Source: Desulforudis sp.
GTDB lineage: Bacteria > Bacillota > Desulfotomaculia > Desulfotomaculales > Desulforudaceae
DNA: 64,000 nt
NCBI GenBank assembly: GCA_003604975.1
Contig: QZIR01000001.1
Location: forward strand, 30,034-94,033
Direction of reading: 5' to 3'
The number at the start of each line of letters is the position of its first letter. The first letter of the stretch is position 1. The position numbers were made by a program, and so were the translations under genes. Shown here piece by piece: positions 825-11,587 of the stretch. The notes under the pieces were generated by a model. It made no database searches, was not told where the DNA came from, and saw only the letters and a program-made list of their open reading frames with translations.

Positions 825-900
825 TGGCGGGGGAAGAAGGATTTGAACCCTCGTTGACGGTTTTGGAGACCGCTGTTCTACCTGGCTGAACTATTCCCCC
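825..900 (-). tRNA. tRNA-Trp (anticodon CCA)
   Basis: The minus strand folds as a cloverleaf: acceptor GGGGGAA (894-900) pairs with TTCCCCC (829-835), the anticodon stem GCGGT/ACCGT encloses the loop CTCCAAA, and the T arm carries GGTTCAAATCC. The anticodon CCA reads UGG. The discriminator base G and the terminal CCA (825-827) are encoded. It has its own promoter and terminator and lies in a window that also holds trpS, two trpB paralogues and the trp operon. Confidence 0.95.
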
Positions 901-8953: not shown

Positions 8954-11587
8954 GTGAAGGTGATAACCACACACACGAATACAGACTTCGACGGGCTGGC
9001 GGCACTGGTTGCCGCCCAGAAACTTTACCCGGATGCCGAGCTGGTACTTCCGGGTAAACTGGCGCGCAATGTCGAGGAGTTTGTGGCGCTGCACCGCGAC
9101 GTGCTCGAGTTGAAGAAGCCGAACGAGGTTGATCTGGATCAGGTGGACTTGCTGGTTGTGGTGGACACCAGGTCACCCAAGCGCATCGGCAAAGTGGCGC
9201 AGGTCCTGAACAACCGCCGCATTCAGATCCATCTTTTTGATCATCACCCGGATACCGAGGGGGATCTCACAGGCAGCCATACGGTTGTGGAACACGTGGG
9301 GTCGACCACCACGTTGATCGTCGAGGAGATCAAGCGCCGGTTCATCACCCTTACCCCCTTTGAAGCGACGGTGCTGGCCCTTGGGATCTATGAGGATACC
9401 GGCTGTATGGTATTCCCGAGCACCACGGAACGGGACGCCGAGGCGGTAGCCTATCTGCTCGCCCAGGGCGCCAACCTGGGTGTTGTGGCCGACTTTCTCG
9501 GGCGCCCGTTAACCGATGAGCAGAAATCCTTGCTTCGTAATCTGCTGATGTCTGCCGAACGCCACGTGATCAACGGCGCCCGGATTCTCGTGGCGGTCTC
9601 CCGTACGGACGAATTCGTCGGGGGCCTGGCCCTGCTGACCCATAAACTGGCCGAGATTGAGCAGATGGACGCCGTCTTCTGTGTGGTGTTTATGGAAGAC
9701 CGCATCCATATCGTCAGCCGGAGCACCCTGCCCGAGGTCAATACGCGGGAGATCCTGGCGTTCTTCGGGGGCGGGGGACACCATGCTGCTGCTTCCGCTA
9801 CGGTAAAGGGTACCGCGTTGGAAGAGGTCACGGCCTCCCTGCTGTCCGTAATTAAAGAAAAGGTCTTGCCCCCGTTAGCTGCCGCAGACATCATGACCAC
9901 ACCGGTGAAGAGTGTGCGACCGGAGACCCGGGTCGACGAAGCAAACCGGATCATGCTCCGCTACGGGCACACCGGCCTCCCGGTGGTGGCTGATTCCGGC
10001 CTGGCCGGCGTAATCTCCCGCCGTGACGTGGAGAAGGCCCACAAGCACCAGCTGGGTCACGCCCCGGTCAAGGCCTTCATGAGCAGGCACGTGCATACTG
10101 TTTCCCCGTCCACTCCGGTCACGGAAGTCCAGGCCACGATGATCGAAAAAAACATCGGCCGCCTGCTGGTGGTGGACAACGGGGACCTCCTCGGTATCGT
10201 GTCTCGGACCGACGTGCTGCGCACCCTGCATCCCAAGTTCAAACCCCGTTTTTCGACCCTCTATGTGCAGCCCCGGAGTACCGCGATCCCGTACTTCGAC
10301 AACGCCGCCGAGGTCCTCAAGCGGAAGGTACCGGAACTCATCATCGGAACCCTGACCACCGCCGGCAGGGTGGGGTCGGAATCCGGGTGCACCGTGTACA
10401 TTGCGGGTGAAATGGTGCGGGACACCGCACTGGGGATCCCCAATACCAACCTGGAACTGGTGGTGGAGGGAGACGGTCAGGACTACACTGACAACTTGGC
10501 CGCCGCGCTGGAGGGAAGACGCTGGGATCCGGGAACCGAGAACCAGAGCTTCGTGATTACGCGTGACGGTCTGAGGCTTTTGATTACCAGTGCCCAGTCT
10601 GAATTTGTGGAATACGGGATGCTTGCGCCGGACACGATCAACTCGCCGCTCAGACATGCGCTGTATCGCAAGGACTTCACCATCAACGCGTTGGCCGTGG
10701 CCCTGAACCCGGACCGCTTCGGCGAGATCATCGATTATTTCAGCGGGCGCGATGACCTGCAGTTCGGCCTGATCCGGGCGCTGCACAGCCTGAGTTTTGT
10801 GGAAAACCCGCTGCGTATCTTTCACGCGGTCTGGATGGAGAAACGGCACCAGTTCACGATCGAGCAGCAGACCCTGAAGCTGATCAGGGAAGCGGTCGAC
10901 GACCGGCTGTTGTTGAAACTGCCGCGCGAGCAGGTCTTTGCCGAGTTAAGACTCCTCCTGGAGTCGGAAGCCGCGCCCAAGATGCTGGCCCGGTTGGCTC
11001 AGCTGAACGTTTGGCCATTGCTGTTCCCAACGGTAACTTACTGGGAGGTCCAGCCCGTATTGGCGGGTATACCCCAGGCCATCGAGGAGATCAAGAAATG
11101 GGACATCCCGGAACCGGCCGAACCCTGGCTGTGTTACCTGATGACCATCCTTTATTTTACTAATCTGGTGATGGCCGAGGAATACTGTACCAGTCACCGG
11201 CTGGAGCGACGCCAGACTAATAAGATCATGAACGGTATCGTCAAGTGGAAGGGCGTCGTGGCTCGGCTGTCCGCCAACGGGGACACGGACCTCAAGCAGG
11301 TGGCCCGCTACCTCCTGGGAATGCCCCGTGAAGCCTACCCGCTGGTGCTTCTGATGCTGGATGAAGCGGACTGGAAGCAGCGGTTCTATGCCGTCCTGCA
11401 CATTTTGCAGGAACATAAACCGCATATTACTGGTAAAGATATAAAAAGCCTCGGCTGCCAACCTGGACCATATTTACCCCAGGCGATGAACGCGGTCTGG
11501 ATGGCCCGGTTGGAAGGGTTACCCGCAGACAGGGAAGCCGAGCTTGAGGTCGCCCGGAAGTTCATCCGGGACTGGGAAGGGGAATAA
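8954..11587 (+). CDS. DHH phosphoesterase-CBS-tRNA nucleotidyltransferase-like fusion with degenerate catalytic motif
   Basis: The 877-aa protein has three parts: a DHH/DHHA1 phosphoesterase (HTNTDFDGLAA at the start, DHHPD, GGGGHHAAAS near 275), a pair of CBS domains (about 310-425), and a poly(A) polymerase/CCA-adding enzyme domain (from about 455). The same arrangement is known from other bacteria, including the Aquifex A-adding enzyme. Here the nucleotidyltransferase signature is damaged: the usual GGxVRD reads GEMVRD (485-490) and the metal-binding DxD reads NLE (499-501), while the later RKDFTINALAV motif is intact. The DHH motifs look normal. Catalysis of nucleotide addition is therefore doubtful; RNA binding, or phosphoesterase activity tuned by the CBS pair, may be what remains. 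Start GTG 8954. Confidence 0.85.
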   Translation: MKVITTHTNTDFDGLAALVAAQKLYPDAELVLPGKLARNVEEFVALHRDVLELKKPNEVDLDQVDLLVVVDTRSPKRIGKVAQVLNNRRIQIHLFDHHPDTEGDLTGSHTVVEHVGSTTTLIVEEIKRRFITLTPFEATVLALGIYEDTGCMVFPSTTERDAEAVAYLLAQGANLGVVADFLGRPLTDEQKSLLRNLLMSAERHVINGARILVAVSRTDEFVGGLALLTHKLAEIEQMDAVFCVVFMEDRIHIVSRSTLPEVNTREILAFFGGGGHHAAASATVKGTALEEVTASLLSVIKEKVLPPLAAADIMTTPVKSVRPETRVDEANRIMLRYGHTGLPVVADSGLAGVISRRDVEKAHKHQLGHAPVKAFMSRHVHTVSPSTPVTEVQATMIEKNIGRLLVVDNGDLLGIVSRTDVLRTLHPKFKPRFSTLYVQPRSTAIPYFDNAAEVLKRKVPELIIGTLTTAGRVGSESGCTVYIAGEMVRDTALGIPNTNLELVVEGDGQDYTDNLAAALEGRRWDPGTENQSFVITRDGLRLLITSAQSEFVEYGMLAPDTINSPLRHALYRKDFTINALAVALNPDRFGEIIDYFSGRDDLQFGLIRALHSLSFVENPLRIFHAVWMEKRHQFTIEQQTLKLIREAVDDRLLLKLPREQVFAELRLLLESEAAPKMLARLAQLNVWPLLFPTVTYWEVQPVLAGIPQAIEEIKKWDIPEPAEPWLCYLMTILYFTNLVMAEEYCTSHRLERRQTNKIMNGIVKWKGVVARLSANGDTDLKQVARYLLGMPREAYPLVLLMLDEADWKQRFYAVLHILQEHKPHITGKDIKSLGCQPGPYLPQAMNAVWMARLEGLPADREAELEVARKFIRDWEGE

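Follow-up and report, generated by a model that had tools for sequence, protein, structure and literature searches.

Loss of the catalytic carboxylates from the nucleotidyltransferase half of a DHH-CBS fusion protein in Desulforudis and related genomes

The genome of Desulforudis sp. (GenBank assembly GCA_003604975.1) encodes a fusion protein in which a DHH-DHHA1-CBS half is joined to a tRNA nucleotidyltransferase (NT) half with an altered active site. We found the gene in the window, a 64,000-nucleotide stretch of contig QZIR01000001.1 (positions 30,034 to 94,033 of the forward strand), and its features are listed in Table 1. All three catalytic positions of the NT head are changed (D499 to N, D501 to E and D543 to L) and the GG of the first motif reads GE. 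Judging from these residues, the head should be catalytically dead and the fusion protein should no longer add nucleotides. Such losses were found in 18 genomes of the order Desulfotomaculales. We consider it probable that a separate, full CCA enzyme made A-addition by the fusion protein redundant, and that the remaining pseudo-NT stayed on in a DHH phosphoesterase as a part that binds tRNA or has a regulatory role.

Table 1. Features of the fusion gene and a tRNA gene in the window
Feature	Position in window	Strand	Evidence and remarks
DHH-DHHA1-CBS-CBS-nucleotidyltransferase fusion, 877 aa	8954..11587	+	GTG start; translation, Pfam, NCBIfam
DHH phosphoesterase domain, residues 3-145	8960..9388	+	Pfam PF01368; metal motifs intact
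DHHA1 domain, residues 223-301	9620..9856	+	Pfam PF02272; GGGGHHAAA present
CBS pair, residues ~310-425	9881..10228	+	Pfam PF00571, two stretches; start of the first from profile and structure-template alignments
NT head, residues 470-612	10361..10789	+	PF01743, 54.9 bits at 481-608; active site lost
GEMVRD replacing GGxVRD, residues 485-490	10406..10423	+	translation, alignment with relatives
NLE replacing catalytic DxD, residues 499-501	10448..10456	+	translation, alignment
Leu543 replacing third catalytic carboxylate	10580..10582	+	alignment with T. maritima CCA enzyme and relatives
RKDFT, residues 572-576, family form RRDFT, largely kept (R573K)	10667..10681	+	alignment
ENPLR replacing EDxxR, residues 617-621; base-reading Asp to Asn618	10802..10816	+	alignment
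PolyA_pol_RNAbd (neck region), residues 634-695	10853..11038	+	Pfam PF12627
Helical body/tail, residues 701-877	11054..11584	+	matches body and tail of CCA enzymes
tRNA-Trp, CCA encoded	825..900	-	one of 46/46 in this genome

The best curated model for the fusion protein was NF041569 (A-adding tRNA nucleotidyltransferase), with 588 bits over positions 2-871 of 880. The fusion shares with this family the full-length DHH-CBS-NT domain order, the length and the locus of its relatives, and it differs from the family in lacking the three catalytic carboxylates and the EDxxR motif. The cut-off of the model, 1440 bits, was missed by this protein, by five intact relatives (606-881 bits) and by the Desulforudis relative L128 (578 bits). 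Because intact relatives also fall below it, the cut-off does not separate lost from intact fusions. In the N-terminal half, the DHH metal motifs (D11/D13, D71 and DHH at 96-98) are intact, as is D148 just beyond the Pfam end, and together with the GGGGHH motif of DHHA1 they assign this half to the DHH-DHHA1 phosphoesterases. It resembles NrnA/GdpP phosphoesterases in sequence and fold; we know of no NT half in these enzymes. The closest named relative found was from a Desulforudis MAG (90% identical). The locus is orthologous among relatives: in 30 loci that were read, this one included, the neighbours were lysA (26/30), an M50-like gene (30/30) and a trpS-like gene (29/30). None of these neighbours accompanies the four named loci L130-L133 from other groups. 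We considered whether the gene is a new paralogue beside an intact fusion and ruled this out, since the genome search gave only this fusion, at the conserved locus, and one stand-alone NT. Three further DHH proteins of the genome are presumably RecJ-size, NrnA-like and CBS-pyrophosphatase-like proteins, named from sequence, size and neighbours.

The initial annotation had described a DHH-CBS-CCA-type fusion with GEMVRD in place of GGxVRD and NLE in place of the DxD. Translation bore out both motif readings, and the DxD loss stands; the type is better given as A-adding, and the loss extends to the third carboxylate and to a whole clade. Its statement that the later RKDFT motif is kept holds for the motif as such, with one change from the family form. 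In the available part of PMC3925840, Asp55, Asp57 and Asp99 are named as the catalytic residues of the Thermotoga maritima CCA enzyme, and these align with N499, E501 and L543 of the fusion protein. The same part of that paper assigns base reading to the Asp of EDxxR. Beside these changes, R548 of the TAR motif is Gln. The earlier expectation that catalysis should stop is supported, and two further losses, of the third carboxylate and the EDxxR Asp, add to those it had named. The three substitutions do not weigh equally. According to the accessible text of PMC3925840, a class I CCA enzyme has Glu59-x-Asp61, and the stand-alone NT of this genome reads EYD at the DxD position. Because Glu is tolerated at such sites, N499 and L543 are the weightier losses and E501 less so. 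A sequencing error or local frameshift was ruled out, since a same-genus genome (G001) reads GEMVRD and NLK, with none of the three carboxylates, and 16 other members of the clade also bear losses; sites were lost in 8/8 members examined of its own taxonomic family.

The initial annotation had also stated that the flanking fold is kept, and the predicted structure agrees. The model of residues 440-877 had a mean pLDDT of 87.1, with values below 50 only in the first residues and in a loop at about 549-561. It matched the tRNA-bound T. maritima CCA enzyme (5hc9; Z 35.1, rmsd 7.0, 407 residues aligned), 4wby (Z 30.7, rmsd 3.1, 358 aligned) and 1vfg, an NT with primer tRNA (Z 28.4); we take 1vfg and 4wby to be the Aquifex aeolicus A-adding enzyme. 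By this predicted structural homology, the C-terminal half has the class II tRNA NT fold of head, neck, body and tail, in common with the T. maritima (3h37, 5hc9) and A. aeolicus enzymes, neither of which, to our knowledge, carries a DHH-CBS half. In the full-length model (mean pLDDT 80.1, pTM 0.48), the mutual placement of the two halves is not fixed.

To place the loss among relatives, we searched 113 genomes of the order, and 105 of them gave a fusion match at E <= 1e-100. When pieces were included, fusions were found in 108: 88 retain the three carboxylates, 18 lack one or more of them, and 2 are unreadable; in the other 5 of the 113 no fusion was found, pieces included. Thus all three carboxylates are kept in 0/18 lost fusions versus 88/88 other readable ones. 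The 18 are spread over families f1, f2, f15 and f17. Residues were counted after 9 fragment rows had been dropped from 111 fusion ORF rows, leaving 18 lost and 84 other fusions. GG, D499, D501 and D543 are all kept in 84/84 of the latter. In contrast, the third carboxylate is lost in 18/18 lost fusions, to nine residue types and never to Glu; position 499 is N in 8, E in 4, V in 2, K in 1 and D in 3; and D501 is kept in 1/18 and G486 in 2/18. The DHH metal motifs are intact in all 18. In addition, two NT halves lie in an open frame without DHH-CBS (L060 in G045 and L257 in G098), and G099 has a second, partial fusion copy (L259).

In a DHH-CBS tree of 45 rows (19 rows of interest, with 26 of the 83 other intact rows as outgroup), a branch with support 96/95 separated the 18 lost fusions and that of G012 from all other rows. 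An earlier tree of 57 rows placed 15 lost fusions and G012 on one side of a branch (support 91/93); both pieces of G045 were left out of that tree and of the independent-pairs test described below. The G012 fusion keeps GG, the three Asp residues and EDPIR, and has Gly in place of Arg572 in motif B. A single clade of the 18 without G012 was not rejected (p 0.124), and G012 may be nested in the lost clade or be its sister. On the tree, sites 486, 499, 501 and 543 require a minimum of 7, 7, 7 and 14 changes, respectively. The carboxylate loss is repeated decay along several lines, with no single fixed new motif.

We then compared the retention of the two halves. Of the residues that are invariant in the family, the window protein keeps 59/60 in DHH, 37/38 in CBS, 24/43 in the head, 11/18 in the neck and 9/9 in the body/tail. 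When an invariant site is counted if 16 or more of the 18 lost fusions retain it, the corresponding numbers are 56/60, 35/38, 18/43, 8/18 and 7/9. At a threshold of at least 17 of 18, the body/tail number is 2/9, and the other five of the seven are gaps in G023 and G033, the fusions of which have a shortened C-terminus; the G050 fusion has an in-frame stop (TAG). Because of these three C-terminal defects, retention of the tail is not universal in the lost clade. A full-length NT half without a stop is present in 15/18 lost fusions (12/15 in the first set, plus G060-G062).

Evolutionary rates separate the head from the rest. Because dN/dS is near saturation in many pairs, we also compared amino-acid distances over disjoint pairs; G012, G094, G099, G102 and fragments were left out of these distances, and the p values are approximate, as disjoint pairs still share some history. 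The ratio of head to DHH distance was 1.71 in 9 lost pairs versus 0.82 in 39 intact pairs (p 0.005). For the neck it was 1.24 versus 1.15 (p 0.87), and for the body/tail 1.12 versus 1.63 (p 0.15). For codon-based values, nine fragmentary or short genomes were excluded and DHH identity was limited to 70-97%. In the 44 lost and 373 intact pairs that qualified, dN relative to that of DHH was 1.92 versus 0.95 for the head and 1.86 versus 1.74 for the rest. The head omega was 0.063 for the pair G000/G001 (G000 being the genome of the window), and its median was 0.181 (largest 0.386) in 30 lost pairs with dS <1.5, versus 0.102 in 130 intact pairs; from neck to tail, omega was 0.212 in lost and 0.192 in intact pairs. 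The relaxation is centred on the catalytic head, and the neck, body and tail are no more relaxed than in the active relatives. The dead half is under purifying selection, with dN/dS well below 1.

These values bear on the possibility that the NT half is decaying baggage beside a needed DHH-CBS half, with no role beyond perhaps propping up the fold. The free variation of active-site positions (for example, the nine residue types at 543), the truncated tails of G023 and G033, the stop in G050 and the relaxed head would all fit decay, and a purely structural need for a folded half would yield part of the same selection signal. However, most lost fusions still have the full-length half, omega is well below 1 in both head and tail, and neck, body and tail, measured against DHH, evolve no faster than they do in active enzymes. 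We regard this reading as unlikely. That the dead part is still preserved suggests a second role, such as holding tRNA.

It is very improbable, in our judgement, that the head remains catalytic through a changed metal site, with E501 or acidic residues nearby supporting the reverse reaction or a nucleotidyl transfer that is weaker or of another kind. The NTP pocket does survive in part, as R489 is kept in 17/18 lost fusions and G485, D490, D574, E617 and R621 in 18/18, and related enzymes carry Glu at such positions. However, a changed site that is used should be conserved within the clade, and here it is variable: the third carboxylate is replaced in every member without Glu ever appearing, the first varies as counted above, and G001 retains no carboxylate at all.

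The second NT of the genome (G000:C3:6488), a counterpart that the initial annotation had left to be found, is acidic at each of its three catalytic positions and has a long loop. In the available parts of PMC7014341 and PMC3925840, a flexible loop is described as absent from bacterial CC-adding enzymes and present in CCA- and A-adding ones. The stand-alone NT has the loop expected of a full-CCA enzyme, with a 31-residue segment between the third carboxylate and RRDFT, and by this signature it would add full CCA. It scored below two NCBIfam cut-offs (250 of 290 bits for NF009814 and 233 of 439 for TIGR02692) and is a related protein, not a curated-level match. A search with a profile of 14 sequences did not find a CC-adding partner in the genome. 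Probably the stand-alone enzyme performs tRNA-tail repair in place of the fusion protein. The initial annotation had noted the encoded CCA of tRNA-Trp and had suggested that the organism may depend less on CCA addition. The tRNA observation was confirmed and extends to 46/46 tRNA genes found in the genome, which would suit encoded CCA as the cause of the loss. As a sufficient cause, encoded CCA was nevertheless rejected and is hardly credible, because in G047, the other of the two genomes that these counts cover, CCA is encoded in 51/52 distinct tRNAs (read from 30 loci; 65 matches in that genome) despite an intact fusion and a CC-type partner, and the genome of the window still keeps a complete second NT. 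The presence of that complete CCA-type enzyme is the better explanation of the loss.

Of the 18 lost-fusion genomes, 17 (this one among them) also carry a stand-alone NT whose loop segment has 31 residues; none was detected in the exception, G006, a genome 73% complete. Among the 88 genomes with an intact fusion, the stand-alone is of the short-loop type (13-15 residues) in 37, as in the loop-deleted bacterial CC-adding enzymes and in contrast to the long-loop partner here; no other NT was detected in 38, and the rest have a 31-residue loop (4), other loop lengths (7) or a broken gene (2). The 17 stand-alones of lost-fusion genomes form one family in which a long-branch outsider, G077, is nested; one clade of the 17 without G077 was not rejected (p 0.124). 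The first comparison of this family left out G070, G078 and G084, and the second dropped these and G090 as well as most short-loop rows, of which four, G043, G077 and the 13-residue group were retained. Only two independent pairs were available for the association between loss and stand-alone, one in the same direction and one with no difference. The presence of the partner in the lost clade looks like one event, and therefore the association has little independent replication. In G011, G036, G075 and G076 (family f5), a loop-bearing stand-alone occurs together with an intact fusion, so that it does not by itself force loss of the fusion; these four are possibly an earlier stage of the same replacement. 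G012, placed within or beside the lost clade, acts as an internal control, since no stand-alone NT was detected there and its fusion is intact; it is a draft genome 95% complete, however, and the absence may reflect an assembly gap. A weak match to the CC-adding profile on its contig C38 was discarded, because the ORF, judged by eye, has no NT motifs; we take it to be an HD-type protein.

Other stand-alone NTs of the order show further variation. In 38 of the 113 genomes, including G013 (30 of the 38 are at least 90% complete), the fusion is intact and no other class II NT was detected. Therefore, the fusion alone must serve there, either as a full CCA enzyme or in A-only repair. The stand-alone of G077 (L284) belongs to the full-CCA family of the lost clade (45% identity to that of G008), has lost the flexible loop and stands beside an intact fusion. 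It represents the opposite outcome of the same redundancy, with its placement unsure on a long branch. L091 (G043), L294, L295, L301, L302 and L303 are loop-less stand-alone NTs inside the CCA-type branch and outside the main CC-adding branch, which suggests further independent loop deletions. Unusual loop segments of 20-42 residues were found in L082, L085, L092, L277, L296, L297 and L299. L281, L285 and L292 are stand-alone NT genes in pieces (G070, G078 and G084); the fusions of G070 and G084 are readable and intact.

The sequence of events that we favour would be as follows. In the ancestor of the clade, the fusion protein would have added A (or CCA), as an enzyme of the type known from A. 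aeolicus (A-adding) and T. maritima (CCA-adding). The ancestor would also have gained the stand-alone NT with a full flexible loop, which by its sequence should be able to build and repair whole CCA ends. A-addition by the fusion would then have become redundant, and its carboxylates decayed differently along several lines, as the residue counts show. The fusion would have been retained for the job of its DHH-CBS half, an NrnA/GdpP-type phosphoesterase with its metal motifs. In the likeliest mechanism, the dead half, still CCA-enzyme-like in its predicted fold and under purifying selection, would dock tRNA or a tRNA-like 3' end without nucleotide addition, and the docked RNA would be delivered to, or gated for, the DHH site. 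CBS domains are known for adenine-nucleotide sensing, and the CBS pair may act in this way here. The initial annotation had suggested RNA binding or regulation of the DHH part as what may be the only function left to the domain. This fits the rates, with a relaxed head, a tRNA-binding part that is not relaxed and a conserved DHH, and we infer no more than that such a role is plausible.

A more specific proposal, which we hold as doubtful, is that DHH-CBS-NT proteins are editing machines for tRNA 3'-ends, in which the NT half would read or rebuild the end and trimming would fall to the DHH half. Here only the reader and the trimmer would remain, and the dead domain would sense tRNA 3'-ends and load RNA into a DHH nuclease gated by adenine nucleotides. 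Dead NT domains inside larger proteins are described, in the accessible parts of PMC6240794 and PMC4351405, for human terminal uridylyltransferases and for OASL, which still binds double-stranded RNA. These proteins are eukaryotic, belong to other NT branches and have no phosphoesterase fusion, and they offer an analogy only. The component domain kinds of the fusion protein are all known, and its decayed variant is new as far as the literature was searched; no title or abstract there reports this carboxylate loss or a function of the DHH half in such fusions.

The clade is a natural knock-out, in which the adding part looks dead in 18 genomes, yet every one of them keeps the DHH metal motifs. 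This combination argues for an independent function of the DHH-CBS half, and the clade is a clean system in which to ask what that function is. The results also suggest that, within a single order, split CCA repair has given way to single-enzyme repair and the reverse. Despite their resemblance to the A-adding tRNA nucleotidyltransferase family, the fusion proteins of this clade probably do not add A.
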